DNA from: Spirosoma sp.
GTDB taxonomy: Bacteria > Bacteroidota > Bacteroidia > Cytophagales > Spirosomataceae
Length of the DNA: 47,911 nucleotides
NCBI GenBank assembly: GCA_014377625.1
Contig: JACMPG010000109.1
Location: 1 to 47,911, forward strand
Direction: 5' to 3'
Each line of letters starts with the position of its first letter. Position 1 is the stretch's first letter. Under the pieces are notes generated by a model. It ran no database searches and was not told the origin of the DNA. It worked only from the letters and a program-made list of their open reading frames with translations. Positions 27,726 through 47,911 of this stretch are shown here, one piece after another. The position numbers were made by a program, and so were the translations under genes.

Positions 27726-28403
27726 ATGATACAAACCATCAACCTACAGAAACTCTTCGCCACCGAAGAAGTAGAAACCACCGCCCTGAACGGGATTAAT
27801 GTGGAAATCAAAGACGGCGAATTCGTTGCCATCATGGGCCCATCCGGCTGCGGTAAGTCAACGCTGCTCAACATCCTGGGCTTGCTCGACAACCCCAGTG
27901 AGGGCGAGTACAACTTTTACGGTACGCCCGTAGCGAAGATGACCGAACGGCAACGGGCCGGTCTGCGCAAAGGCAGCATCGGCTTCGTATTTCAGAGCTT
28001 TAACCTGATTGACGAACTGACGGTCTATGAAAATGTGGAGCTGCCGCTGCTGTACCTCAAAACACCCACCGGGGAGCGCAAAGAGCGCGTAGAAGCCTCG
28101 CTGGAGCGGATGGGCATCATGCACCGGCGTAATCACTTTCCGCAGCAGCTATCGGGCGGGCAGCAGCAGCGCGTGGCCATTGCACGGGCCGTAGTGGCCA
28201 AACCCAGGATGATTCTGGCCGACGAACCGACAGGTAATCTCGACTCGAAAAACGGGGAAGAAGTGATGAAAGTCCTGAGCGAACTGAACGACGAAGGCAC
28301 CACGATCATCATGGTCACGCACTCGCCCTACGACGCCGGTTTCGCCCACCGCATTGTGAACCTGTTCGATGGCAAAGTGGTAACGGAGAATTTTCACGTC
28401 TGA
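27726..28403 (+). CDS. MacB/LolD-type ABC transporter ATP-binding protein
   Basis: Walker [34 protein letters not shown] signature, [12 protein letters not shown] Walker B. Confidence 0.95.
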
Positions 28404-28416
28404 TTACGTAGCCGAA

Positions 28417-28516
28417 GTACAGACGCGATCCTTCGCATCTCACATACGTAAGCAATTTGCGCCGACAACTATTCACAGAAATCATCCGGTCAGGAGACGC
28501 GAGGGATCGCGTCTGT
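28417..28516. repeat. pair of inverted REP-like hairpins
   Basis: gaagtacagacgcgatccttcgcatctcac and gagacgcgagggatcgcgtctgtacttc are imperfect reverse complements; each is itself a stem-loop (AGACGCGA-ggga-TCGCGTCT). Confidence 0.75.
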
Positions 28517-28540
28517 ACTTCACCAAAATCGCTGTATCTC

Positions 28541-30922
28541 ATGTTCCGCAACTACCTCAAAATCGCCGTCCGTAACCTCTGGAAGAACCGGCTGTTTACG
28601 ACTATCAATGTGTTGGGACTGGCCATTGGGCTGGCCTGCGTGGTGGTGCTGGTACTGTTTGCGCAGAAGTGTCTGACCTGGGACACCCAACACGCCAACC
28701 TCGACCGGATTTACTACGTCCAGACGAAAGGCGACGGTAAGCCGTATAACCAAACGGTGTATCCATTACTCGACCAAATGCTGCGCGACTACCCCGAAAT
28801 TGAGACGGGTACACACGAGCAGACCTGGAACTACCCCTGGATTGAATACAAGGGCAAAAGCATTCAGGAGCCTACCGACTATGTTGATTCTACGTTCTTC
28901 CGGGTCTTTACATTTCCATTCAAATACGGCAATCCAGCCACGGCTTTGCAAAACAAACGCTCGGTAGTGCTGAGCGAAAAAACGGCGCAGAACCTATTTG
29001 GCAACATCAATCCGGTGGGTAAGTATGTGACCGTCAACGATACGTTGCAGTATGCTGTTACGGGCGTTCTGGAGAAACTCCCGGCCAATTCATCGCAGCA
29101 GTTCGAGGTACTAATGCCTACCGCTAACCTACTCGATAATCCAGGGTTTCGCGAAAACGCCGACTGGTACAATACGTTTGCCACCACCTTTATTCTTCTG
29201 AAAGATGACGCTGACCCAGCCCGGCTGGAAGCTAAACTGCCGCAGTTGGTGAAGGCGCATTACAAAGACGAGGCAAAGAAATCAACGCTGTTACTGACTC
29301 CGTTCAAAAACTTTATTTACAGTGAGAATCCGTCCTTTCAGGGATTGATCTATGGCTCTGTGTTGCTGGCGGCTTTTCTGCTGTTTATCATCAGTGTCAA
29401 TCTGATAAACCTGAACACGGCTTTGGCCCTGCCCCGCGCCAAAGAAGTGGCCATGCGGCAGGTAGTGGGGGCTACACGCCGGTTAGTGCTGGAGCAATTC
29501 TGGACCGAGTCGGGTTTGGTGGTTATGGTGGCCCTACTGCTATCGGTACTATTTGCGGTGTTCTATCTGGTACCCACCTTCAACCAGCTACGGAGCGAGA
29601 ATATGCAGTTGAGTATTGACTTCGATACGGACTATCCTACCCTGCTGACCGTGCTGAGTATTGCGCTGGTGGTGGCTCTGATTGCCGGTACCTACCCGGC
29701 TCTGTACCTGATGAAACTCAAAACAACAGATGCGGTGAAGGGTAAGATTTCGGCCAGCCCCCGGCAGGGACGACTCCGGCAAAACGCCCTGATTGTGCTG
29801 CAATTTGCGCTGGCAGTAATGCTGATTCTTGGTACTATCGGGATGCGCGAGCAACTCAAATTTATGAAAGAAGCCAACCTCGGCTATGACAAAGAAAACG
29901 TACTGGTGTTCAAAACCGACCTCGCCTTTCGGAACGAAAACGCGGCTCTATCGCAGGGACGGACCATTTTCGACCAGCTCCGGGCCAATCCCAATGTGGT
30001 ATCCTTTACCAGTACCTATTATACGCCAGTAGCCTACCAGAATAACTTTAATACGTATTATCCCAACGGCAACGAAAAGCAGCAGATACACGTCCGGCAT
30101 ATGAGCGGAGCGGTCAATTACACCGAAACGCTGAAGATTCCAATGCTGGAGGGACGTAACTTTTCTGATGCTACCCCCGCCGATTCGGCCAACAACGCCG
30201 TGATTATCAACGAGTCGGCGATGCGGGCATTTGGCTGGAAAACGGCAGTAGGCAAAAAACTCCGGCAACTCAACAACCCCACTATTTACACTGTCACTGG
30301 CGTAACGAAAGACTACCACTACCGCGACCTGACAGACCGTGTAGAGCCGATGTTACAAGCCTACGGGGGCCGCGAAAGCCTGAACAGCTACCTGCTGGTT
30401 CGGGTTAGCGACCGCGCCAATGCTCCTGCCCTATTTGAAACGTTGAACCGGGAATTCAAAAAAACTCCGGCCCGGCGTTCGCTCTCCTACACCTACCTCG
30501 CCGACGACATTGCAAAGTCATACCGGTCGCTCGATAACCTCTGGCAGATGATTAGCTTCGTTACCATGATTGCTATACTGACGGCCTGTGCGGGCATTTT
30601 TGGGTTAGTCACGCTGGTAGCCCGCCAGCGCACCAAAGAGATTGGCATCCGAAAAGTGCTGGGCGCAAACATCGGCGACATTATCGTGCTGGTGGGTTCT
30701 GACTTCCTGAAATTGGTAGGATTGGCTATTCTGATTGCCCTGCCAGTAGGTTGGCTATCTGGCCAGAAAATGCTGAACTACTTCGCCTATCACACCCCAT
30801 TGCACTGGTGGGCATTCGCGCTGGCGGGTCTGGTGGCAGTGGGCATTGCCCTGCTGACCGTTTCGTTCCAAAGCATCCGGGCCGCGCTGATGAATCCGGT
30901 GAAAAGTTTACGGAGCGAATAA
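28541..30922 (+). CDS. FtsX/MacB-type ABC transporter permease
   Basis: MFRNYLKIAVRNLWKNRLFTTINVLGLAIGLA...; RQRTKEIGIRKVLGANIGDIIVLVGSDFLKLV; C-term AALMNPVKSLRSE. Confidence 0.93.
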   Translation: MFRNYLKIAVRNLWKNRLFTTINVLGLAIGLACVVVLVLFAQKCLTWDTQHANLDRIYYVQTKGDGKPYNQTVYPLLDQMLRDYPEIETGTHEQTWNYPWIEYKGKSIQEPTDYVDSTFFRVFTFPFKYGNPATALQNKRSVVLSEKTAQNLFGNINPVGKYVTVNDTLQYAVTGVLEKLPANSSQQFEVLMPTANLLDNPGFRENADWYNTFATTFILLKDDADPARLEAKLPQLVKAHYKDEAKKSTLLLTPFKNFIYSENPSFQGLIYGSVLLAAFLLFIISVNLINLNTALALPRAKEVAMRQVVGATRRLVLEQFWTESGLVVMVALLLSVLFAVFYLVPTFNQLRSENMQLSIDFDTDYPTLLTVLSIALVVALIAGTYPALYLMKLKTTDAVKGKISASPRQGRLRQNALIVLQFALAVMLILGTIGMREQLKFMKEANLGYDKENVLVFKTDLAFRNENAALSQGRTIFDQLRANPNVVSFTSTYYTPVAYQNNFNTYYPNGNEKQQIHVRHMSGAVNYTETLKIPMLEGRNFSDATPADSANNAVIINESAMRAFGWKTAVGKKLRQLNNPTIYTVTGVTKDYHYRDLTDRVEPMLQAYGGRESLNSYLLVRVSDRANAPALFETLNREFKKTPARRSLSYTYLADDIAKSYRSLDNLWQMISFVTMIAILTACAGIFGLVTLVARQRTKEIGIRKVLGANIGDIIVLVGSDFLKLVGLAILIALPVGWLSGQKMLNYFAYHTPLHWWAFALAGLVAVGIALLTVSFQSIRAALMNPVKSLRSE

Positions 30923-30935
30923 ACCCCTTACAACT

Positions 30936-33356
30936 ATGCTGACCAACTATCTTAAAATCACGCTGCGTTCACTCGTTCGTCATCGTTTATTCACGCTGAT
31001 AAACGTAGTCAGTCTTAGTGCTGGCCTTTTCGTGGCTTACACCGCTATTTGTTACATCCAATACGAAACGAGTTACGATAATTTCCACGAGAACGCCGGG
31101 TCTGTATATCGGCTGGCACGTACCTATCGCTCCCAGGATTACAGTGTTATAGGATTTCCGAACTGGAGCGAAGCAAGTGCAAGTGATCAGCAACAACAGG
31201 CCAGGTCGCTCAAAAACATGACTGGCATTCAGGAAGCATCTCAGTTTATTATAGCCAATGTGCCGGAGTTTGTGGACACGGGCGATAGACGGATTCAGGC
31301 CGAAGACCTGCTGACTACGAACACGCCAGCCGCGTTCTGCTCTATGTTTAGCTGGGCCCTGCGGCAGGGTAGTTTTCAGAATTTTGCGGATGGATGGAAC
31401 AAGATTATTCTGACCGCTTCCTCTGCCCGGAAACTATTTGGACTCGATGCTCCTGACCGGGCGGACCTGATCCAAAAGCGGGTGAAAATCGCCGGTACAG
31501 ATTATACGCTGGCCGCCATCATTGACGACGTACCGCTCAATTCGCACATAAACTTTACAATGGTTCTGAGCCAGCCCCGCATCAATTACTGGGGGAGTCG
31601 TATGTACGTGCAGTTAAAACCGGATTACGACCAGGTCACTGCAGAGAAGTCTATCAACGAAGCCATATCGCTCCTCAACCCTGCCCTTGCCCAGGACCCG
31701 CTGTACAAACGTCATTTTTTACAGCCTATTCCCAGTATTCACTTAGAGTCTAACATCCTTTACGAAACTAAACCACCTGGCAACAAAGGCTACATTATTA
31801 TGATCGGGTGCTTCGGCGTATTTGTGCTGGGCATCACCCTTTTCAATTATGCCAACCTGTCGCTGGCTCTCAAGTCCAGACAGAGCAAAGCTATTGGGGT
31901 GCGAAAGACGCTGGGAGCCACCCGGTTTTCAGTTACGCTGGGGTTAGTATCGGAAAGCATTTTGCTGTCTATCATGGTTATTCCGGTAGTCGTGCTGTTG
32001 AGCATTGTACTGATACCTTATGTCAATGCTTTTATGGGTGTACACATTGATACCCGCGTTTACGGCAACTGGCAACTGCCGCTGATTCTATTGCCGTTGG
32101 CGGTTGGGATGGGGACGTTAGCGGGTGTTTTTCCGGCTACTCTGCTGGCGGGACGCCGAGTAGTCGATTTGTTTGGCAGTACCCTGCGAAACACCCGATA
32201 CCAGCGACTTTCCGTTCGCAACTACTTGGTCATCTGTCAGTTTGTGGTACTGATCGTAATTTCTTCGGTGTCGTATTTCGTAGTTCGTCAGATTCAGTTC
32301 GTCGAACGTAAAAACCTGGGTTTTCGGCAGAAGAATGTACTCTACGCCTACTCCTCGCCCGAAAAACAAAACCTGTTTCAGGAGAAACTCCGTCAACTAC
32401 CGGGCATCGAAGCGGTGGGCAATGGCTCTTCATTTGGCATCATGCCTTATAACCAGGTTACGTACAAACTGGAGGGGGCAGAGACCGTCTATGACGATGC
32501 GCAGCAACTATACCTCGATTATGACGCGGTGAGCATTTATAACCTGACCGTTTTTCCAGGCGGGCTTACCCCAAAAAATTTGCCTAAAAACGGGGTCATA
32601 ATCAACAAAACGGCGGCTGCGAAAATTGCACGAAGCCAGCGCATCACTACGGACGAACTCATTGGGAAAACAGTCATTACCGAACCGGAATACCGGGCAG
32701 AAAATGGGCAAACAGGGTTTCCATTTGTGGTGGCAGGTATTTTCGACGACATCAACCTATTTTCGCTCCACGAGCAGATTACGCCTTATTTTATTCGATT
32801 ATCCGAGAACATCCGTTTAGACGGTCGTACCATTATTCAGTATGACCCGGCGGCTGCTCCGCACCTGCTTGCTGATGTTAAGGGGGTCTATGATAGTTTG
32901 AACGAATCGTTTCCGCTCGAAACAGCTTACTTAGACCAACAGGTAAAAAACCTATACGCGCAGGATCGTCAAACTGCCAATTTGCTACTCTGCTTGAATA
33001 CGATTGCGGTATTCCTGGCAGGATTAGGGTTGACCGGGCTTGCTGTTTTTCTGACAATGGCCCGTATCAAGGAGATTGGTATTCGCAAAGTGCTGGGCGC
33101 AACACCTCTTTCAATCATCTGGTCGTCGCTCAGAGAATACGTCTGGCTGGTGGGTTTAGCCCTTCTCATCAGCGTACCCATTGGATATTACGCAGCAACC
33201 GAATGGCTGGAAAACTTTGCCTACCATGTTGATATTCAGCCGGTTGCTTTTGCAGGAGCGGGCTTGCTTACCTTCCTGCTAACAGCGCTGATTGTCAGTA
33301 CTGTGGCTTACAGGGCCGCGCTGATGAACCCGGTGAAAAGTTTACGGAGCGAATAG
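30936..33356 (+). CDS. FtsX/MacB-type ABC transporter permease
   Basis: MLTNYLKITLRSLVRHRLFTLINVVSLSAGLF...; MARIKEIGIRKVLGATPLSIIWSS; AALMNPVKSLRSE. Confidence 0.93.
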   Translation: MLTNYLKITLRSLVRHRLFTLINVVSLSAGLFVAYTAICYIQYETSYDNFHENAGSVYRLARTYRSQDYSVIGFPNWSEASASDQQQQARSLKNMTGIQEASQFIIANVPEFVDTGDRRIQAEDLLTTNTPAAFCSMFSWALRQGSFQNFADGWNKIILTASSARKLFGLDAPDRADLIQKRVKIAGTDYTLAAIIDDVPLNSHINFTMVLSQPRINYWGSRMYVQLKPDYDQVTAEKSINEAISLLNPALAQDPLYKRHFLQPIPSIHLESNILYETKPPGNKGYIIMIGCFGVFVLGITLFNYANLSLALKSRQSKAIGVRKTLGATRFSVTLGLVSESILLSIMVIPVVVLLSIVLIPYVNAFMGVHIDTRVYGNWQLPLILLPLAVGMGTLAGVFPATLLAGRRVVDLFGSTLRNTRYQRLSVRNYLVICQFVVLIVISSVSYFVVRQIQFVERKNLGFRQKNVLYAYSSPEKQNLFQEKLRQLPGIEAVGNGSSFGIMPYNQVTYKLEGAETVYDDAQQLYLDYDAVSIYNLTVFPGGLTPKNLPKNGVIINKTAAAKIARSQRITTDELIGKTVITEPEYRAENGQTGFPFVVAGIFDDINLFSLHEQITPYFIRLSENIRLDGRTIIQYDPAAAPHLLADVKGVYDSLNESFPLETAYLDQQVKNLYAQDRQTANLLLCLNTIAVFLAGLGLTGLAVFLTMARIKEIGIRKVLGATPLSIIWSSLREYVWLVGLALLISVPIGYYAATEWLENFAYHVDIQPVAFAGAGLLTFLLTALIVSTVAYRAALMNPVKSLRSE

Positions 33357-33375
33357 AGACGCAAGTATGCGTCTC
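33356..33375. repeat. REP-like hairpin abutting a stop codon
   Basis: GAGACGCA-agta-TGCGTCTC, perfect 8-bp stem, begins at the last base of TAG. Confidence 0.75.
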
Positions 33376-33393
33376 ACCGGCGGATGATATTCT

Positions 33394-33873
33394 TTAGACA
33401 AATACCTCACTTACGGGTAGTTCGATGCCGGTAACGGAATCTGTTAATGTTTCGGTTTCGGGAAAGAACTGGTATTTACCGAAAGCAGAATAAACCGAAA
33501 TGGCCTGAAAGCTGGGCATGACTAACCAACAGGACCGAATACCCGCATCGAAGTACCGTTTGAATTTGGCAATGATTTCCGCGTCTGACTGCGAAGGCGA
33601 AACAATTTCAATGGCCGTCAGCGGCATCTCGGTCATCGACGTGATGTCTTCAAAGAAGTTTACTTCCAGCTTAGGAAAAATAGCGATGTCAGGAACGGCA
33701 TCCGGGCGTTCGGGCATGGTCAGGTTTATTTCCGACACAATCAGGTATTGCTCCCGATACTTGAGTTTGAGGGCAAAAACTAAGTTTGCCTGACTAACGG
33801 CATGATTCAGTGTAGGCATGGGTTTACCACGTTCGCGTTCGTACTCGGAAATTTCATCCAGAATGGCTTCCAT
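33394..33873 (-). CDS. Uma2-family (DUF820) restriction-endonuclease-fold protein
   Basis: VPDIAIFPKLEV, MPLTAIEIVSPSQSDAEIIAKFKRYFDAGIRSCWLVMPSFQAISVYSAFGKYQFF. Confidence 0.85.
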   Translation of the reverse strand: MEAILDEISEYERERGKPMPTLNHAVSQANLVFALKLKYREQYLIVSEINLTMPERPDAVPDIAIFPKLEVNFFEDITSMTEMPLTAIEIVSPSQSDAEIIAKFKRYFDAGIRSCWLVMPSFQAISVYSAFGKYQFFPETETLTDSVTGIELPVSEVFV

Positions 33874-33916
33874 AAGCTGACGGGTTTTTTCTTAAAGATA
33901 CCAAATTTTCAAAATC

Positions 33917-36343
33917 ATGTTCACGAACTATCTCAAAATTGCCTGGCGGACGCTCCGCAAACAACGAGGCCTGACGTTCATCAACATCGTGGGGCTGGCC
34001 ACCGGCCTGACCTGCTGTATGCTCATTATGCTCTACGTACTCGATGAGTTGAGCTACGACCGCTACAACCAGAAAGCTGACCGGATTTACCGCGTTCAAA
34101 CCGATGTTAAGTTTGGCGGTAACGATATGCACTTTGCTGTTTCGCCTGATCCCATCGGCCCGACACTTAAAAAAGACTACCCGCAGGTAGAGGAGTTCGT
34201 ACGGCTGCGTGATCGCGGGACTTGGTCGGTCAGGCGGACCGGTGAGGCAACGAATCTGCGGGAAGATAACATCACTTTCGCCGACTCCACACTCTTCGAT
34301 GTGTTTACGCTCCCGCTCGTGGCGGGCAACTCCAAACGGGCATTGGCCGAACCAAATACGGTAGTCATCAGTGAGTCGGCGGCCAAGCGGCATTTCGGCA
34401 GTCAAAACCCGATGGGACAAACGCTGGTGTTCAACAACGACAAAACATACAAAGTAAGTGGTGTGATGCGGGACATGCCCAAGAACGCCCATTTCCACAG
34501 TGATTTTTTCCTGACCATGCTCAATGACGAGTACACTTGGGGTCAATGGCTCAGCAACAATCATCATACCTACGTTCTGCTGAAACCGGGAAGCAATACG
34601 GCCTTGTTTACCCAACACTTCGACACTATCATCAGAAAGTACATTGGCCCGAAAGTACAGGAGTCTATGGGTGCGTCTATGGAGCAGTTTAGAAAGGCGG
34701 GTAACACCCTGGCATATTGGCTGATTCCACTCACTGACATCCATCTGCACTCCAAACAACAAATCGAATTATCGCCCAACGGCGATATGCAGTATGTGTA
34801 CATCTTCTCGGCAGTAGCGCTGTTCATTCTGCTCATTGCCTGTATCAATTTCATGAATCTGGCTACGGCCAGGTCGTCCAATAGGGCGCGGGAAGTGGGT
34901 GTTCGCAAGGTAATGGGGTCAAAACGGCAGCAACTCATCGGGCAGTTCATGACCGAATCGGTGCTGACCACCGTGCTGGCTATGCTCCTGGCGTTACTGC
35001 TCGTGGCCGTTGCCCTGCCGGGTTTTAACGCCATTGCCACCAAAAAACTGAGCATTATTCAACTGGTATCACCCTATTACCTGCCCTTCTTGGTAGCCCT
35101 ACCCATTGTAGTAGGCTTACTGGCAGGCATTTACCCAGCCTTCTTCCTATCGTCGTTTGAACCAATTTCGGTGTTAAAAGGCAAAATAAATGCGAGTTTC
35201 CGAAGTTCCGGGTTACGCAACGGATTAGTTGTTTTTCAATTCGCCATGTCAGTCGTGTTGATTATCGGGACCCTTATTGTCTATCGGCAGATCACGTATA
35301 TCCAAACCAAAAATGTGGGTTTCAATCGCAATCAGGTCGTGACCGTCAACGATGTGTATGCCATTGGCAAACAGGCTGAAACCTTCCGGCAGGAAGTACT
35401 GCGACTACCGGGCGTAGTGAGCGGGAGCGTATCCGGCTACCTGCCTACGCCGTCTCACCGGAGCGATACTCCTTTCTGGGCCGAGGGGCAGACCGATATA
35501 AACAAAGGTGCTGTTATGCAGAATTGGGGCGTTGATTATGACTACCTCAACACATTAGGCATGACCGTTGTACAAGGGCGGAATTTTTCGCACGACTTCG
35601 GCTCCGACTCATCGGGTATTATTCTCAACGAAGCGGCTGTGAAGGTATTGGGCTTCAAAAATCCCATTGGCCAACGCATCTTTCGGTTTAATGACGAGCA
35701 GGGCAAAAGCCGACAAGCCTTCACCGTTGTTGGCGTAGTCAAAAACTTCCATTTCGAATCGCTCCGGCGCAACATTGGGGCGTTGTCGATGATACTGTCG
35801 CCTAATTCGGGGGCGGCTTCGTTCCGAATCGGCAGCGGGAACCTACCCGTGCTGATGAAACAGATTGAAGCCAAATGGAAGCAGGTGGCCCCCGGCCAGC
35901 CGTTCAGTTATCAGTTCATGGACGATAGTTTCGACGAGATGTACCGGGCCGAGCAGCGCGTTGGCACTATTGCCCTGACGTTTGCCGGGCTGGCTATTCT
36001 CATTGCCTGCTTAGGCCTGTTTGGGCTGGCCGCTTTCATGGCCGAGCAGCGCACCAAAGAAATTGGCGTTCGCAAAGTGTTGGGAGCCAGTGTAGGCAGT
36101 ATTGTAACGCTGTTATCCAAAGACTTTCTAAAACTGGTGTTAGTGGCCATTATCATTGCTTCACCACTTGCCTGGTATGCCATGAATAACTGGTTGCAGG
36201 ACTTCGCCTACCGCATCGACATTGAGTGGTGGTATTTCGCCCTGGCGGGTTTGCTGGCGGTGAGCATCGCGCTGCTGACCGTGAGTTTCCAAAGTGTCAA
36301 AGCCGCATTAATGAATCCAATAAAGTCTCTACGTTCCGAATAA
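33917..36343 (+). CDS. FtsX/MacB-type ABC transporter permease
   Basis: MFTNYLKIAWRTLRKQRGLTFINIVGLATGLTCCMLIMLYVLDELSYDRYN...; EQRTKEIGVRKVLGASVGSIVTLLSKDFLKLV. Confidence 0.94.
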   Translation: MFTNYLKIAWRTLRKQRGLTFINIVGLATGLTCCMLIMLYVLDELSYDRYNQKADRIYRVQTDVKFGGNDMHFAVSPDPIGPTLKKDYPQVEEFVRLRDRGTWSVRRTGEATNLREDNITFADSTLFDVFTLPLVAGNSKRALAEPNTVVISESAAKRHFGSQNPMGQTLVFNNDKTYKVSGVMRDMPKNAHFHSDFFLTMLNDEYTWGQWLSNNHHTYVLLKPGSNTALFTQHFDTIIRKYIGPKVQESMGASMEQFRKAGNTLAYWLIPLTDIHLHSKQQIELSPNGDMQYVYIFSAVALFILLIACINFMNLATARSSNRAREVGVRKVMGSKRQQLIGQFMTESVLTTVLAMLLALLLVAVALPGFNAIATKKLSIIQLVSPYYLPFLVALPIVVGLLAGIYPAFFLSSFEPISVLKGKINASFRSSGLRNGLVVFQFAMSVVLIIGTLIVYRQITYIQTKNVGFNRNQVVTVNDVYAIGKQAETFRQEVLRLPGVVSGSVSGYLPTPSHRSDTPFWAEGQTDINKGAVMQNWGVDYDYLNTLGMTVVQGRNFSHDFGSDSSGIILNEAAVKVLGFKNPIGQRIFRFNDEQGKSRQAFTVVGVVKNFHFESLRRNIGALSMILSPNSGAASFRIGSGNLPVLMKQIEAKWKQVAPGQPFSYQFMDDSFDEMYRAEQRVGTIALTFAGLAILIACLGLFGLAAFMAEQRTKEIGVRKVLGASVGSIVTLLSKDFLKLVLVAIIIASPLAWYAMNNWLQDFAYRIDIEWWYFALAGLLAVSIALLTVSFQSVKAALMNPIKSLRSE

Positions 36344-36354
36344 ACCAGCAACCT

Positions 36355-36873
36355 ATGAAACTCCTGTTTATTTCTCTTCTGCTCAGCATCGGCGCGTGTG
36401 CCGTGGCGCAACAGTCCCGAACCGAAACGCTTAGCTCCAGCGTCAATGACGATGGTAAAACGTACTCGATCAAAATTGATGGCGACATGAATGGCCGAGC
36501 CGTGCATTACGACCGGACGTTTACCGTAAAAGGCATGTCATCAACCCAAAAAGACGCGCTGAGAGAGCGTATTATGGATTCGCTCCGCACGGAGAAGATT
36601 ACCGACGTTCGGCCCCGCGTTACGAAAGACCCCAACGCAACGGTGTTTGTCTGCGAAACCTGCGCGGGCCGGATGAAAATTCAGGTCGTGGGCGATGGCG
36701 TGTCGGTCATTCGGGAGGAATACCCGAAACTGGGCGAAGCGTCGATGTTCCCGCTGACGATGACGCTCAAACCCGGCGAATACCGGCTGATGTACTGGCA
36801 AAACAAGGTGATGCAGATTCAGGACACGTTCACCGTAGAAGCGGGCGAACCAACCGAGGTACGGATCAAATAA
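36355..36873 (+). CDS. secreted hypothetical protein
   Basis: MKLLFISLLLSIGACAVAQQ signal peptide; begins 12 bp after the preceding permease stop. Confidence 0.75.
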   Translation: MKLLFISLLLSIGACAVAQQSRTETLSSSVNDDGKTYSIKIDGDMNGRAVHYDRTFTVKGMSSTQKDALRERIMDSLRTEKITDVRPRVTKDPNATVFVCETCAGRMKIQVVGDGVSVIREEYPKLGEASMFPLTMTLKPGEYRLMYWQNKVMQIQDTFTVEAGEPTEVRIK

Positions 36874-36898
36874 ATCCAGCCAGCCAATCAAACCAATC

Positions 36899-39349
36899 AT
36901 GTTCCGAAACTATCTCAAAATCGCGTGGCGGAATCTGTGGAAGCACAGAACGTTTACGGCTATCAACGTGGCTGGTTTAGCTATTGGTATGGCTACTAGT
37001 CTGTTGATTCTGGAGTATGTCAGTTTTGAACGTAGCTACGACTCGTTTCACCAGCAGGCCAACGACACATACCGGATTCAGTACAATCAGGTAAACAACG
37101 AGGGTGCTGTTACGGCTAAAGCTACCACGTTCGCGTCGGTCGGGCAGGGACTACGGAATGCTTTTCCGGAAATTGCATCGGTGGTTCGGTTTCACAGGTC
37201 CAGTGCTCTGTTGAGCTATGAGAACCCGAAACAGGTCAATATGTTCCGCGAAGAGAACATACTGGCTGCCGATTCTGCTTTCCTGAAATTTTTCTCGTTT
37301 CCCCTTCTGAAGGGAAACACTAGAACTGCACTACAAAACCCGAAGTCGATTGTGATTACGCAGACGTTGGCCCGCAAGTATTTCGGAACCGAGGAACCGA
37401 TTGGTAAAACGATTAAAATGACCGGCGGCTACGGCGACTGGAACGGGAATGACTATCAGGAAATCAGTTATTATACCGTAACGGGTGTGTTGGCTGATAT
37501 TCCCGACAACTCGCATATACAGGTCAACGCCCTGGTGTCGTTTAACCTGTTCTCGCGTGGAGAAGCTGAACTATCAAATTGGGGCGACAATTTTTACACC
37601 TATGTGTCGCTTCAACCGGGTTCATCGCCCCAGGCCCTAAATGCTAAATTGCCGGTTTTTATCAAACAGCTATTGGGAGATAGTACCAACGATGGGATAC
37701 AACTCCAGCCGTTGACCAGCATCCATTTAGACGCTGCCTTATTGGGGGAATTGGGTATGAACGGGAGCCGAGTCATGGTGTCGGTGTTGCTCCTGGTCGC
37801 GCTGTTTACGTCGCTGATTGCCTGGATAAACTACGTCAATCTGCCCACTGCAAGAGCCTCCGAACGAGCGAAAGAAGTAGGCGTTCGGAAAGTTACCGGA
37901 GCCTCCGGCGGTGATCTGCTTCGGCAGTTCCTATTAGAAGCAGTTCTGTTAAACAGCTTGAGTCTGTGCCTGGCTATTGGACTGGTAGAGGTGGCTCAGC
38001 CGGGCTTTAACACTCTGATAGGCAAGCCTCTATCGCTTCATATATTGCTCAATAAGTCATGGATGCTGGTTTATGCTGGCTTTTTTATCGGCGGAATCCT
38101 CCTGTCTAGCCTTTACCCCATTTTTATCAATTTAGCCGTTCGGCCAGCCAATGTATTACGCGGGCAGGGCGTGCCGACTGGGCAGGGGCTATCACTCCGA
38201 AAAGCATTGGTCGTGTTTCAGTTTATGCTGTCTATGATTCTGATTACCGGTTCACTGGTGATGTATCGTCAGTTAACGTTTATGCAGCGCTATGACGTTG
38301 GCGTTACGCTAAACCAACTTCTGGTGCTCAATGGCCCAGCCACAACCGATTCAGCTTACCAATCCAGACTGCAACAAATCAAAGCCGGGCTGCTCAATAA
38401 CCCCGCCATTAAACGGGTTACGGCATCCAACCTCATTCCGGGCAAAACCATCGCTGGTTTATCGAAGACAGGGCTAGTCAGGCGACTGAACCAACGGGAA
38501 GAGGAATCGGCTGGCCGCTATTTTTTCTCGCAGGTCGACTACGATTTCCAGCAAACATTCGGTGCTCGTTTGGTAGCTGGCCGGTGGTTTTCGACAAACT
38601 ATGGTGCTGACGCGGTTCCCGGACAATCGGTGGTCATTAACGAAACGGCTGCCCGCTTGCTGGGTTATGCAAGTCCGGTTGAAGCTTTTGGTAAGCGGAT
38701 AAACTACCGGGTGCAGAGTACGCCAACGATCATCGGGATTTTGAAGGATTACCATCAACTTTCGCTCAGGAAAGTGATTGATCCGATCATTTTCGAGCTG
38801 GACAAAGCACCCGATGGCTACTTCACCGTCAGTCTCAGCCAGGAAAGGCTGCCTGAGACGATTGCTGCTATTCAACAAGTCTGGCAGAAGGTATTTCCTG
38901 ACAGTCCATTTTCGTATTTTTTCTTAGACGACTTTTTCAACCAGCAGTATCAGTTGGACTGGACATTCGCTAAACTATCGGGGCTTTTTGCCCTGCTGGC
39001 TATTATCGTGGCTTCATTAGGCCTGTTTGGTCTCGCTTTCCTAACCACGATTCAGCGCACCAAAGAAATCGGCGTTCGGAAAGTCCTCGGCGCGTCGGTC
39101 AGCAGTATTGTAACGCTGCTCTCTAAAGACTTTTTGAAACTGGTGGTTATTGCCATTGTCATTGCCTCGCCGATTGCGTGGTGGGCCATGAACAAGTGGC
39201 TGGCCAACTTCGCTTACCGCATCGACATGGCCTGGTGGGTGTTTGCGCTGGCGGGTTTGCTGGCGGTGGGTATTGCGCTCATCACGGTAAGTTTCCAAAG
39301 CATCCGGGCCGCACTGATGAACCCGGTGAAGAGTTTGCGGAGTGAGTAG
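36899..39349 (+). CDS. FtsX/MacB-type ABC transporter permease
   Basis: MFRNYLKIAWRNLWKHRTFTAINVAGLAIGMATSLLILEYV...; IQRTKEIGVRKVLGASVSSIVTLLSKDFLKLV. Confidence 0.94.
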   Translation: MFRNYLKIAWRNLWKHRTFTAINVAGLAIGMATSLLILEYVSFERSYDSFHQQANDTYRIQYNQVNNEGAVTAKATTFASVGQGLRNAFPEIASVVRFHRSSALLSYENPKQVNMFREENILAADSAFLKFFSFPLLKGNTRTALQNPKSIVITQTLARKYFGTEEPIGKTIKMTGGYGDWNGNDYQEISYYTVTGVLADIPDNSHIQVNALVSFNLFSRGEAELSNWGDNFYTYVSLQPGSSPQALNAKLPVFIKQLLGDSTNDGIQLQPLTSIHLDAALLGELGMNGSRVMVSVLLLVALFTSLIAWINYVNLPTARASERAKEVGVRKVTGASGGDLLRQFLLEAVLLNSLSLCLAIGLVEVAQPGFNTLIGKPLSLHILLNKSWMLVYAGFFIGGILLSSLYPIFINLAVRPANVLRGQGVPTGQGLSLRKALVVFQFMLSMILITGSLVMYRQLTFMQRYDVGVTLNQLLVLNGPATTDSAYQSRLQQIKAGLLNNPAIKRVTASNLIPGKTIAGLSKTGLVRRLNQREEESAGRYFFSQVDYDFQQTFGARLVAGRWFSTNYGADAVPGQSVVINETAARLLGYASPVEAFGKRINYRVQSTPTIIGILKDYHQLSLRKVIDPIIFELDKAPDGYFTVSLSQERLPETIAAIQQVWQKVFPDSPFSYFFLDDFFNQQYQLDWTFAKLSGLFALLAIIVASLGLFGLAFLTTIQRTKEIGVRKVLGASVSSIVTLLSKDFLKLVVIAIVIASPIAWWAMNKWLANFAYRIDMAWWVFALAGLLAVGIALITVSFQSIRAALMNPVKSLRSE

Positions 39350-42912: not shown

Positions 42913-43278
42913 GTGGGTCCGAATTACCTTAAAATCGCTTTGCGCACCCTGCGTTCCCAACGGAGTTATACCCTGCTGAATACCATTGGTTTATCGGTAG
43001 GTATGGCGGGTGGCCTGCTCATTTTTCTGTTCCTGCGCCACCACCTCAGCACCGACCGGCACCACACCCACTACAACCGGCCTGGTGCTGATTGCCATCG
43101 TCATTGCCAGCCCACTTGCCTGGACATGGCTGACTGACTTCGCTTACAGGATCGACATTGCCTGGTGGGTGTTTGCGGTGGCGGGTTTACTGGCGGTGGG
43201 AATTGCGTTGTTGACCGTAAGTTTTCAGACATAAAGGCCGCACTGATGAATCCGGTGAAGTCGTTGCAGAGCGAGTAG
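42913..43278 (+). pseudogene. internally deleted FtsX/MacB permease remnant
   Basis: N-terminus VGPNYLKIALRTLRSQRSYTLLNTIGLSVGMAGGLLIFLFLRHHLSTDRHHTHYNR joined near 43080, in another frame, to C-terminus LVLIAIVIASPLAWTWLTDFAYRIDIAWWVFAVAGLLAVGIALLTVSFQ; second frameshift before IKAALMNPVKSLQSE*. Confidence 0.88.
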
Positions 43279-43299
43279 AGCCGCAACATATTGCGGCTC
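43278..43299. repeat. REP-like hairpin abutting a stop codon
   Basis: GAGCCGCAA-cata-TTGCGGCTC, perfect 9-bp stem followed by accc. Confidence 0.75.
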
Positions 43300-43356
43300 A
43301 CCCACGTCAGCAATCTCCCGCTTACGAACAAAGCAGAAAGGGCAGTTTCCAGCCGC

Positions 43357-43432
43357 TTACAAAGGTTTTACAATTCCTTTACAATGTTTTACCGGGCTTT
43401 TTCGATTCCTGAAAACGAGGGCTATACTTTTG
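43357..43432 (+). promoter_or_regulatory. candidate promoter with phased TTAC direct repeats
   Basis: TTAC at 43357, 43368, 43379 and 43389 (11/11/10 bp spacing), upstream of TACTTTTG (43425-43432), which fits the Bacteroidota -7 pattern TAnnTTTG. Confidence 0.55.
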
Positions 43433-43459
43433 GTTCGTTCCTTAAAAAAAATAGAAACC

Positions 43460-43936
43460 ATGAACGCTAAACTACTTGCTCTCGTCACGCTGCTACTGGG
43501 CGTAGCGGCCACATTTGCCCAACGCACTCCGTTGAGCGTATCACTGCGAACAGGCCAAAAGCAACCCGCCACCTCCTGCTATAATCCGTCGAGATTGGAC
43601 GTCAAACCGATCAATTACGCCACTTTTTCGGTTGCCAGCCGGGGCATATTGACCGTTGTACCGAACAAGTCAGAAACGGAATGCACCGGGCCGGTTCCGT
43701 TCCGAATTTACCTGCGCCGGAACGGTCAGGTTATCCAACAGGGCCTCTCCGACACAACCCGGTCGGTGATGAGCATTGAGGTGGCTTCTGTGCTGGCCAT
43801 CGCTAAATTTGGTGATGATCTGGTAATTGAACCCACCCAGAAAAGCCATGTCTCTGCCAAACGGACAATCAGAATTAAACCAGCGTTTAACAATGATTTA
43901 TTCTCATTTTTGAGAACCCCAAAAGACGGATGCTAA
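43460..43936 (+). CDS. small secreted hypothetical protein
   Basis: MNAKLLALVTLLLGVAATFAQ signal peptide; PFRIYLRRNGQVIQQGLSDTTRSVMSIEVASVLAIAKFGDDLVIEP; 22 bp before the regulator. Confidence 0.75.
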   Translation: MNAKLLALVTLLLGVAATFAQRTPLSVSLRTGQKQPATSCYNPSRLDVKPINYATFSVASRGILTVVPNKSETECTGPVPFRIYLRRNGQVIQQGLSDTTRSVMSIEVASVLAIAKFGDDLVIEPTQKSHVSAKRTIRIKPAFNNDLFSFLRTPKDGC

Positions 43937-43958
43937 TGAACCGATACACCCCGTACGC

Positions 43959-44852
43959 ATGAAAAAGATAGTCCTCGTTCTGTCACTGTTGGTAGCCGGT
44001 TTGCTGTTTGCGCAGGTTAACAGGCTACCAGCCGCTACGGGCAGGACTGACCAACCTGACTTTACGCAGCAGGCGAATCTGGCTCTTCGGCGCACTGCCC
44101 ATCACCTCCTGCGCGAAGCCGGCGATTCTACCTCCCGGATTCCGGCGGTACAGCAAGTCCATGCCGCTACGTTCCAGATTCGGCTGGATCACGCCCTTAA
44201 CTATAAAAAGCTACCGGCCCTGTTGCAGCAATCACTGGCTCTGTATGCCCTTGACGATCCCTACGACGTAGCGGTTCTCGACTGCACAGCGGGCACGGTA
44301 CAGTTGGGCTATACCGTAACCGACCTGACTCAACGGAACGACGTGCCCTGCGTGGGTCGCGACCAGCAACCCGGGTGCTACACCATCCGGGTTTCGTTTA
44401 CCGGACGGGAGTCAAAAAAGGAGCCATTAGTACCTTGGGGCCTGTGGATAGCCGGTTTCGCATTGAGCGGTGGCGCCTACATGGTCTGGCGAAAAAGCAG
44501 CCGAACCACCCACCCTGCGCTACTAACGAAATCATTACCAGCAGCATCAGCCCCGTTAATTCAGGTAGGAAACCTGACGTTCGACGTCCTTAATCAAACG
44601 GTTGATGTTGCTGGCCAATCGCATGCCCTTACCTACCGGGAAGCCAAGCTGCTGCACCTGTTTCTTCGCCATCCGAATCAACTGCTAGCCCGCGATTTCA
44701 TCCTTAAATCAGTCTGGGAAGACGAAGGTATTATTGTGGGCCGCAGCATCGACGTCTTTGTATCCCGACTCCGTAAACACCTGCAACCCGATCCCAATCT
44801 GCATATCGTCGCCGTACATGGCGTGGGTTACCGGCTGGAAGTTCGCGTATAA
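43959..44852 (+). CDS. membrane-spanning one-component regulator: periplasmic sensor, TM helix, C-terminal OmpR/PhoB-type winged helix
   Basis: Signal/TM MKKIVLVLSLLVAGLLFAQ; second TM WGLWIAGFALSGGAYMVW; wHTH LTYREAKLLHLFLRHPNQLLARDFILKSVWEDEGIIVGRSIDVFVSRLRKHLQPDPNLHIVAVHGVGYRLEV. Confidence 0.87.
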   Translation: MKKIVLVLSLLVAGLLFAQVNRLPAATGRTDQPDFTQQANLALRRTAHHLLREAGDSTSRIPAVQQVHAATFQIRLDHALNYKKLPALLQQSLALYALDDPYDVAVLDCTAGTVQLGYTVTDLTQRNDVPCVGRDQQPGCYTIRVSFTGRESKKEPLVPWGLWIAGFALSGGAYMVWRKSSRTTHPALLTKSLPAASAPLIQVGNLTFDVLNQTVDVAGQSHALTYREAKLLHLFLRHPNQLLARDFILKSVWEDEGIIVGRSIDVFVSRLRKHLQPDPNLHIVAVHGVGYRLEVRV

Positions 44853-44882
44853 TACCGGACCTCGCTGATGAATACGGGCAAA

Positions 44883-44896
44883 TCACTACGTAGTGA
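44883..44896. repeat. 14-bp perfect palindrome
   Basis: TCACTACGTAGTGA downstream of the regulator gene. Confidence 0.55.
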
Positions 44897-44913
44897 GTGA
44901 CTACTAAAAAGGA

Positions 44914-44950
44914 GCTTAACAAACTTTAACAGACTGGCTGTTAGCACTAT
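44914..44950 (+). promoter_or_regulatory. conserved permease-upstream element, copy 2
   Basis: gcttaacaaactttaacagactggctgttagcactat identical to 42840-42876; palindrome TAACAG-ACTGG-CTGTTA at 44927-44943, 41 nt before the permease start. Confidence 0.75.
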
Positions 44951-44984
44951 TTGTACCTTGCTGCCCTACTAAAGAGATAGCAGG

Positions 44985-47396
44985 ATGCTCCAGAATTACC
45001 TGAAAATCGCCCTTCGTAACCTGGTCCGGCGACGGTTCTACGCAGTCGTTACGCTTTTCGGCCTGACGGTTGGCCTGACGTTTCTACTACTCATCGGCAA
45101 CTATATTTCGGGCGAGTTAGCCGTGAATAAATCCCTCCGCCATGCCGGGCAGCAATACCTTTTGCAGAGCCAATGGAAGGTAAAAGAGATGGGCTATGAA
45201 ATTGGCTCGCTGGCGCCAATGGGACCAACACTCAAACGTCTGTATCCCAGCCTCGTTGCCAATTATTACCGCAACTACGGCGTTGGAGCAATCGTATCCA
45301 GCGCCCACCATCATTTTAAGGAAGTTGTTCAGGTTGGTGATTCTACGCTGCTCACCATGTTTGGTTTGCCAATGGTTTATGGCAATCCACAAACCGCACT
45401 TCTGGAGCCCAATTCAATCGTTATTACGTCGACGATGGCCCGGAAGTATTTTGGGCAGACCAGCGTACTCGGTCAAAAGCTTACTATCCAGACACCGGGG
45501 GCCGGTAAACAGCTTTTTACGGTCACGGGTGTACTGGAAGATTTGCCCAACAACAGCGTTACTCAACTGTCGGGTAGTGGGCAGGCCTTTATACCCATGA
45601 GCAGTTACGGCTACTTTGCCGATAAAGAAACACTGAACGCCTGGGACAACCGCACCCTGATTACGTACCTGGAACTGCAACCGGGTATCTCAGCCGACCA
45701 GCTTACCCAACCTTTTGTACAAACGCTGACGACATATACCCCGCCGAAAATACGGTCAAATTTGCGGGCTTATCTGAGTCCACTGACCACGTATTACCTG
45801 AAGGCGAATAACGGTATGGTTGAAAAAATGCTGCTGGCCCTCTCGCTTACCGGCCTGTTTATTCTGCTGATGGCCGTCGTTAACTTTGTCAATATCACCA
45901 TCGGCACGTCGGCCACCCGGCTTCGCGAGATTGGTGTCAGAAAAGTGCTGGGTGGGCTCAGGAAACAGCTCATTGGCCAGTTTCTGACCGAAGCCCTCCT
46001 GCTGACAACAGGAGCTACTATACTGGCCTTAGGCTGCCATGAACTCGTTAGATCTTCGTTTGCCGATTTGCTGGAACAGCCTGTTTCCTCGTTCGTTGAC
46101 TGGCCACCCATGGCAGGCGTAGGGCTGTTGGGTTTTGTATTATTCATTACGTTGCTGGCGGGTTTCTACCCGGCGTTTGTGCTGTCAAACCTGCCTTCTG
46201 TCGAGTCGCTCAGGGGCAAACTGGCGGTTTCCGGGCAAAAAGGAATCGGTCTTCGCCAGTCATTGATTGTCTTCCAGTTTACAGTCGCCATTTGCGTTTT
46301 TGCGGGGGCTGTTGTGATTGGCTGTCAGGTAACTTATTTTTTCAGCAAAGATTTAGGGTACCAGAAAGCACAAATCATGACGGTATCCTCCGTACCGCGC
46401 GACTGGTCTCCGGCGGGGGTGCAGCGCATGGAAGGGATCAGGAACCAACTGGCCCGCGTTCCTGGCGTGAGCGATGTCAGTTTATCATTCGAGGTTCCAG
46501 ACGGCAGTAGTAGTGGCAGTGTCGGTATTTATGCGGCCGGTCAGGACAGTACGCGGGCTATAATTGCCAGTACCGTTACTACCGATGAGCAGTTTGCTCA
46601 AACGTACGGGCTGAAACTAAAAGCGGGTACGTTCTTCCACGCCAACAGGGGTTCTGCCTATGATTCACTGCGCGTTGTCCTGAACGAATCTACGGCGAAA
46701 GCATTGGGCTGGACTAACCCGGATAAAGCAATAGGTCATTCCGTACGGTTTCGGGGCGGCACGTTTCAGGTTAGTGATATTCTGGCCGATTTTAACTTCG
46801 GTTCGCTCCACGAAACCATAAAGCCGCTGGTGTTTATTCAGGTCAGGCAAGACCCCATTTATCGCTATTTCTCGTTCCGCATTTCGCCGGGCAAGTTAGC
46901 TGAAACCGTAGCCGCCGTTGGCAGCGAATGGGCGCGGCTGTTTCCTGATGCGCCTTTTGCGTATGCGTTCATGGACGATACGCTCCAGAAACTTTATAAA
47001 ACAGAAATTCAACTACAGAAAGCCGCGCGATTAGCCACCGTTCTGGCTCTACTTATTGTTCTCCTCGGCATTTTCGGAATGGTGACGCTGAGCGTGGCCC
47101 GGCGCACAAAGGAGGTCGGTATTCGGAAAGTGCTGGGGGCTTCGGTGCCGGGTATTGTGGGGTTGTTTCTGCGAGAATACGCCCTGATTCTACTGATTGC
47201 CAACGCCATTGCCTGGCCCGCAGCGTATTGGTTTATGACTAACTGGCTGGCAGGATACGCGTACCACATCTCCCTGACCTGGTCACCGTTTGTGCTGGTG
47301 GGGCTTGGCATAGTGATACTGACAACCGGCGTAGTTAGTATACAGGTCATGCAAGCCGCGCTGATGAATCCGGTGAGGAGCTTACGGAGCGAATAG
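44985..47396 (+). CDS. FtsX/MacB-type ABC transporter permease
   Basis: MLQNYLKIALRNLVRRRFYAVVTLFGLTVGLTFLLLIGNYISGEL...; ARRTKEVGIRKVLGASVPGIVGLFLREYALIL; AALMNPVRSLRSE. Confidence 0.93.
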   Translation: MLQNYLKIALRNLVRRRFYAVVTLFGLTVGLTFLLLIGNYISGELAVNKSLRHAGQQYLLQSQWKVKEMGYEIGSLAPMGPTLKRLYPSLVANYYRNYGVGAIVSSAHHHFKEVVQVGDSTLLTMFGLPMVYGNPQTALLEPNSIVITSTMARKYFGQTSVLGQKLTIQTPGAGKQLFTVTGVLEDLPNNSVTQLSGSGQAFIPMSSYGYFADKETLNAWDNRTLITYLELQPGISADQLTQPFVQTLTTYTPPKIRSNLRAYLSPLTTYYLKANNGMVEKMLLALSLTGLFILLMAVVNFVNITIGTSATRLREIGVRKVLGGLRKQLIGQFLTEALLLTTGATILALGCHELVRSSFADLLEQPVSSFVDWPPMAGVGLLGFVLFITLLAGFYPAFVLSNLPSVESLRGKLAVSGQKGIGLRQSLIVFQFTVAICVFAGAVVIGCQVTYFFSKDLGYQKAQIMTVSSVPRDWSPAGVQRMEGIRNQLARVPGVSDVSLSFEVPDGSSSGSVGIYAAGQDSTRAIIASTVTTDEQFAQTYGLKLKAGTFFHANRGSAYDSLRVVLNESTAKALGWTNPDKAIGHSVRFRGGTFQVSDILADFNFGSLHETIKPLVFIQVRQDPIYRYFSFRISPGKLAETVAAVGSEWARLFPDAPFAYAFMDDTLQKLYKTEIQLQKAARLATVLALLIVLLGIFGMVTLSVARRTKEVGIRKVLGASVPGIVGLFLREYALILLIANAIAWPAAYWFMTNWLAGYAYHISLTWSPFVLVGLGIVILTTGVVSIQVMQAALMNPVRSLRSE

Positions 47397-47503: not shown

Positions 47504-47911
47504 CTATACGGGCTTAGCAGCCGGGCGGGCGTGTTCGGCTTTAAGTACCACCACGTCGCGAACGGTGCCACCCGCGTTGATTTTCTCTACCATCTTGTCG
47601 AGCAACGGCGTAGCCCAGTTGGGAATGTACTTGTCCGTGGTTTCTACGAATACCCTCGGAAAATCGTAGAGCGAGCGGCCCAGGCCAAATTGTACAGCAC
47701 AGCGTTTCATCGCGTCGCTGATGCCGCCCTTTACGGGTTCGATGTCGGTTCGGCTGGCTCCGTCGGTCTTTTTGACAACCGTACCACCGGCCATCGACAC
47801 CGTGATGGTACACAGAAACCCACCGTCAATTTCCTTGATTTCGTTTTGCCAGTTGGCCCAGCCAAACTGCTCGTCGAAGCGCTGCATGACGCAGCGGTTG
47901 GTGATGTAGGG
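47504..47911 (-). CDS. Rad52/22-family ssDNA-annealing protein (partial; 5' end outside window)
   Basis: PYITNRCVMQRFDEQFGWANWQNEIKEIDGGFLCTITVSM...DIEPVKGGISDAMKRCAVQFGLGRSLYDFP; frame stays open to the window edge. Confidence 0.75.
   Translation of the reverse strand, partial: PYITNRCVMQRFDEQFGWANWQNEIKEIDGGFLCTITVSMAGGTVVKKTDGASRTDIEPVKGGISDAMKRCAVQFGLGRSLYDFPRVFVETTDKYIPNWATPLLDKMVEKINAGGTVRDVVVLKAEHARPAAKPV

Follow-up and report, generated by a model that had tools for sequence, protein, structure and literature searches.

A membrane-anchored one-component regulator of Spirosoma and its candidate coupling to Cys-ended secreted partners

We describe a locus of Spirosoma sp. in which a membrane-anchored one-component regulator, called REG, and a small secreted protein, called sec, form a conserved pair, while the FtsX permease gene that follows them lies outside this core. 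We lean, if only slightly, towards the view that REG is a one-component switch that is coupled to its partner by a disulfide at C131, accepts exchangeable partners and controls its own locus, a case built on sequence comparisons. A broader proposal, on which we are hesitant and incline a little to the negative side, is a plug-in type of signalling, in which one membrane transcription factor takes sensors of unrelated fold, each docked by a C-terminal Cys on one invariant Cys.

The window, by which we mean the whole stretch of 47,911 nucleotides analysed here, is a single contig (JACMPG010000109.1) of a 5.3-Mb assembly with a completeness of ca 85%. An earlier note on this DNA had proposed three open reading frames at the locus, and their coordinates were confirmed by an ORF check (Table 1); the intergenic gaps are 22 bp between sec and REG and 132 bp between REG and the permease gene. 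Homologues of REG were found in 147 of the 223 genomes of the family Spirosomataceae, nearly always in one copy, and the locus is thus not a product of chance. The nearest ones, in S. spitsbergense (L038) and S. luteum (L039), are 82-84% identical, and a class-wide search extended the full-length homologues to many families of the class. A literature search returned no description of the REG family; its coverage of subscription journals is sparse, which makes this weak evidence of novelty.

Table 1. Features of the locus, in window coordinates (AF2, structure model).
Feature	Position	Strand	Details	Basis
Operator	43356-43393	+	CTTACA 43356-43361, TTTACA 43367-43372, TTTACA 43378-43383, TTTACC 43388-43393; direct repeats 11/11/10 bp apart	motif search
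sec, small secreted beta protein	43460-43936	+	158 aa; last-residue Cys codon 43931-43933	ORF, homologues, AF2
REG, membrane-anchored one-component regulator	43959-44852	+	297 aa	ORF, Pfam, homologues, AF2
REG signal/TM1 helix	43962-44021	+	aa 2-21	AF2; hydropathy 2.0
REG periplasmic sensor domain	44022-44432	+	aa 22-158	AF2, alignment, histidine kinase homology
REG periplasmic Cys		+	C109 44283-44285; C131 44349-44351; C140 44376-44378	alignment, AF2
REG TM2 helix	44436-44498	+	aa 160-180	AF2
REG winged helix, PhoB/RprY-type	44553-44849	+	aa 199-297; near-invariant VWEDEGIIVGRS	domain and structure matches
ADOP-like FtsX/MacB_PCD duplicated permease	44985-47396	+	neighbour, not conserved core	Pfam, NCBIfam, loci comparison

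Architecture and origin of the regulator

The AF2 model of REG (pLDDT 83.9) consists of a helix at residues 2-21, a periplasmic alpha/beta domain and a second helix at 160-180; a poorly modelled linker leads from there to a winged helix, which starts at about residue 199. Trans_reg_C (aa 219-293, E 8e-19) is the single Pfam domain, and Pfam finds neither a kinase nor a receiver domain. The inverted ToxR-like topology suggested in the earlier note, with a signal/TM helix, a second TM helix, a C-terminal winged helix and no receiver or kinase, is therefore confirmed. Foldseek matches PhoB with an E of 2e-7 and has CadC and ToxR domains among its structural matches; all of the matches listed concern the winged helix and none the sensor, and the sequence of the sensor domain gave no significant match in the PDB. 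The best NCBIfam model is that of RprY (NF051850, E 4.7e-25), which covers the DNA-binding part only and scores 88 bits against a cut-off of 370.

The origin of the sensor was approached with a profile (A3) made of the periplasmic part and TM2 only, which was used in a class-wide search. The matches fall into two size classes, one comprising the REGs themselves (open frames of ca 276-333 aa, E below 1e-28) and the other open frames of ca 414-466 aa with E from 1e-17 to 1e-7. One member of the second class, L188, was read from end to end and proved to be a histidine kinase; the response regulator that comes after it has RprY as its best model. Judged by sequence, the REG sensor domain is homologous to the sensors of Bacteroidota histidine kinases, down to E 1e-17. 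Since the sensor is shared with a kinase that stands beside an RprY-like regulator, REG looks like a kinase sensor and anchor fused to a winged helix from this type of system, and we infer that the fusion ran from the kinase system to REG.

The three periplasmic cysteines pointed out in the earlier note can be identified as C109, C131 and C140. Among 133 aligned REG homologues, C131 is kept in all 133. C109 occurs together with C140 in 112 of them, 15 have neither, and 6 have one without the other; in most REGs that have only C109, a Cys lies two positions beyond that of C140. This habit of being kept or lost together fits an internal disulfide, and the simplest reading would be a C109-C140 bond that leaves C131 as the odd one.

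Partners ending in cysteine

The N-terminus of sec is signal-peptide-like, and neither a Pfam and NCBIfam search with the sequence nor a PDB fold search with the model (best E 0.22) gave a significant match. Despite a mean column identity of 34%, the last residue is Cys in all 28 sec homologues, and the C-terminal tail has a pLDDT of only about 55 in the AF2 model. In most Spirosomataceae loci sec lies directly upstream of REG, and it is often preceded by a second small secreted protein homologous to it, sec2, which was not found in this ca 85%-complete assembly. Two Dyadobacter loci (L064 7649-7873 and L080 7648-7872) have a shrunken sec of 74 aa that comprises the signal peptide, a linker and the Cys-ended tail only. 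The conserved pairing, a terminal Cys set against an invariant Cys and a common operator (see below) all speak for the earlier idea that the secreted protein is the partner of REG.

Other loci have other partners. The Cys-ended proteins beside REG fall into at least seven groups that cannot be aligned with each other, among them a family of 180-205 aa ending in GGC (F2), a lipoprotein family of ca 190 aa (F5), BNR and Reg_prop propellers (both Pfam matches), and, named by eye, TonB_C-like proteins and one YceI-like protein. In one locus (L252) the ORF just upstream of REG, of 345 aa, is an apparent fusion of a TonB_C-like part (..VVQAGC) and an F5 part (..IERVGC), each of them Cys-ended.

In the first 104 loci, a terminal Cys is found in 53 of 102 ORFs just 5' of REG, compared to 1 of 102 at position +1 and 12 of 718 distant ORFs. 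A hold-out set of 31 further loci, fetched after this pattern had arisen, gave 13/31 at position -1, 0/30 at -2, 1/30 at +1 and 3/170 for distant ORFs, with p = 9e-10. Since the loci share ancestry, the p-values overstate independence, and with the simple ORF calling used they are to be taken as guides only. The one Cys-ended ORF at +1 in the hold-out set is a Reg_prop protein (L240), in which case the order is REG-partner. Of the Reg_prop ORFs, 7 of the 15 at -1 are Cys-ended, as opposed to 1 of the 17 elsewhere, and this one, again that of L240, also adjoins its REG. About half of the REG loci have no adjacent Cys-tailed ORF, and in several of them the neighbours are YceI-like, sec2 or GGWYCPDN-type proteins without a terminal Cys. 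Six loci (L231, L245, L246, L248, L250 and L251) have at -1 a lipoprotein in which the invariant Cys of a GGWxCPDN motif replaces the terminal one. It should also be mentioned that in 32 of 69 Cys-tailed partners, the sec of the window included, the mature part contains further cysteines, with which the terminal Cys could pair internally.

One could ask whether the terminal Cys simply reflects common descent or a gene-overlap constraint, with no role in REG signalling. In enteric co-component systems the codon of a C-terminal Cys is indeed known to overlap the start codon of the partner (PMC9214523). Here, however, there is no such overlap, 22 bp separating the two genes of the window, and many partner genes are divergent, so that the overlap origin was rejected; the partner groups, moreover, are not alignable with each other. 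We consider this explanation scarcely credible.

Another option is that C131 forms a homodimer disulfide with C131', of the kind described for ToxR and TcpP, and senses the envelope redox state in this way, the Cys-tailed proteins being regulated outputs that use their terminal Cys for some other purpose, for instance anchoring or thiol chemistry. C131 being both odd and invariant would fit, and ToxR cysteines, according to PMC6242745, form inter- as well as intramolecular bonds. The F2 proteins of two genomes (G720 and G765; loci L191 and L193) likewise speak for it, since they end in GGC and adjoin a phosphatase-like gene, and their terminal Cys is kept even though neither REG nor the operator was found in these genomes. 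The F2 family may resemble the end of Bacteroidota M56/BlaR1-like proteins. The homodimer would, on the other hand, leave unexplained why a terminal Cys occurs beside REG in at least seven unrelated groups, and why Reg_prop proteins have it mainly when they adjoin REG, and we judge it to be unlikely, if the most serious of the alternatives.

A further alternative is that the thiols of REG and of the partner jointly bind a metal ion or a thiol-reactive compound, making the pair a metal or thiol-stress sensor. Cysteines are used by many metal sensors, and a free thiol in each of the two proteins would fit a common site. A conserved His/Cys metal motif beyond these cysteines was not seen, however, and some loci, for instance L072, are minimal, REG and its partner having a single Cys each, which is too few for a typical site unless the complex is dimeric. 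This makes the joint site a rather improbable solution.

Operator and downstream permease

The consensus operator consists of three TTTACA repeats with a spacing of 11 + 10 bp, and is located upstream of the partner gene or operon, oriented towards it, across many families. Spacings of 11, 21 and 10 between TTACA pairs were seen 72, 64 and 63 times, respectively, the next commonest spacing 14 times. Using an 18-position score (a stricter pattern gave 3 instances only), 81 of 135 loci reach at least 16/18 upstream of REG, compared to 0 of 129 downstream controls. A scan of the window yields one match, before sec and with 0 mismatches, where 0.06 are expected at up to 3 mismatches, and with up to 1 mismatch it is the only match in the assembly. 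The site itself covers 43367-43393, and the CTTACA at 43356 comes in addition. The reversed pattern has no match in 12 genomes.

In relatives, operators also stand away from REG: before a relocated sec2 in G193, before a Cys-tailed F2 gene in G055 and before the gene of a trypsin-like protein in G187, which supports partners encoded in trans. F2 genes away from REG in two further genomes (G302 and G362) have an operator variant with 9+12 spacing that is also present upstream of REG-adjacent F2. Taken as a sequence pattern, the operator placement also supports autoregulation of the locus. The trypsin-like secreted protein (L265 288-1439, minus strand; L042 6792-7979) has the REG operator in one genome and lies between sec and REG in Larkinella.

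We now turn to the permease, whose ORF contains MacB_PCD and FtsX domains twice and matches TIGR03434 with 241 bits, below the curated cut-off of 622. No ATPase gene adjoins it, in line with its earlier description as ATPase-less; on the plus strand at 27726-39349, a MacB-type ABC ATPase gene is followed by four ADOP-like permease genes and is a possible source of the ATPase.

The earlier note had proposed that this permease is driven by REG in response to an envelope cue, perhaps with sec as ligand or partner. The gene starts 132 bp downstream with no terminator-like site in between, which makes co-transcription by read-through from REG possible, and the surroundings of REG in Spirosomataceae are enriched in FtsX genes (25 of the 49 loci mapped). 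This enrichment arises because the locus often sits in islands of ADOP-type permeases, dozens of which are held by the neighbouring islands. In the two closest relatives (L038 and L039) and in most other families no FtsX gene lies near REG, and the window scan found no operator before the FtsX gene, the sole copy preceding sec. The permease was accordingly discarded as a core partner, and the claim that REG drives it is not supported; the module as a whole appears very unlikely to us.

Three minor features surround these genes. A perfect palindrome, TCACTACGTAGTGA, without a T-run is present at 44883-44896 between REG and FtsX. At 42913-43279 (plus strand) lies what is left of an FtsX permease gene after the deletion of most of it, namely ca 50 N-terminal residues, a frame change and the C-terminus, ..IKAALMNPVKSLQSE. 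At 47504-47911 on the minus strand, an ORF that runs off the contig end resembles, by eye, a Rad52/single-strand annealing protein.

Proposed mechanism and relation to known systems

In the mechanism that we favour, the C131-coupled switch, REG would be a collapsed RprX/RprY-type two-component system, with sensor and anchor joined straight to the winged helix. By binding the three TTTACA direct repeats that precede the gene of its partner, it would control its own locus. In the periplasm, C109 and C140 would form the internal disulfide, and the last-residue Cys of the partner, placed on a flexible tail, would form a disulfide, reversible or permanent, with the odd and invariant C131. Tethered to REG in this way, the partner would serve as a sensor or an inhibitor that can be exchanged, and a ligand on the partner, or the making or breaking of the bond, would change the dimerisation of REG and the transcription of the partner operon. 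The C131-partner disulfide, the control of REG by the state of the partner and the binding of REG to the repeats are what we infer here. Against this mechanism speak the REG loci without an adjacent Cys-tailed ORF, the F2 tails kept in G720 and G765, and the further cysteines of many partners.

If the plug-in proposal is true, new inputs could evolve by giving any secreted protein a Cys tail and an operator, and a two-component system could collapse to a one-component switch and yet accept new inputs through terminal-disulfide docking. It would offer a natural blueprint for membrane biosensors of modular build. The analysis also yields a clear operator, a testable residue pair and candidate roles for unannotated secreted families in Bacteroidota.

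ToxR-like receptors are defined by an N-terminal cytoplasmic DNA-binding domain, one TM helix and a C-terminal periplasmic domain (PMC5936718). REG shares with them the OmpR/PhoB-type winged helix and a periplasmic sensor in one membrane protein without a receiver, but in REG the periplasmic domain comes first and the DNA-binding domain last. Like ToxR/ToxS, TcpP/TcpH and VtrA/VtrC, the REG/sec pair is phosphorylation-free and has a small partner next door and periplasmic cysteines; it differs in its kinase-related sensor, in its Cys-ended partners of many folds and in its Bacteroidota host. The pair would work like the co-component systems of ToxR/ToxS type (PMC9214523, PMC5936718) while departing from their defining domain order. 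The two-gene cassette with a periplasmic partner, as in VtrA/VtrC, is present in most Spirosomataceae loci. As to the lipocalin-like fold of that partner, sec has no PDB match better than the one quoted above, and other partners are propellers or, by eye, YceI- or TonB_C-like.

REG recalls RprX/RprY in its winged helix, for which RprY is the nearest model at a score below its cut-off, and in a sensor homologous to that of the L188 kinase beside an RprY-like regulator; it lacks, however, the kinase, the ATPase and the receiver, and its two TM helices run straight to the DNA-binding domain. CadC, too, sits in the membrane as a one-component regulator and has a PhoB-like DNA-binding domain, but at the N-terminus and together with one TM helix. 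The tail of the partners, finally, recalls SoxY of sulfur oxidation, a carrier and not a signalling partner, for which we claim no homology and whose functional Cys, although not the last residue, is carried on a flexible Gly-rich C-terminal tail.
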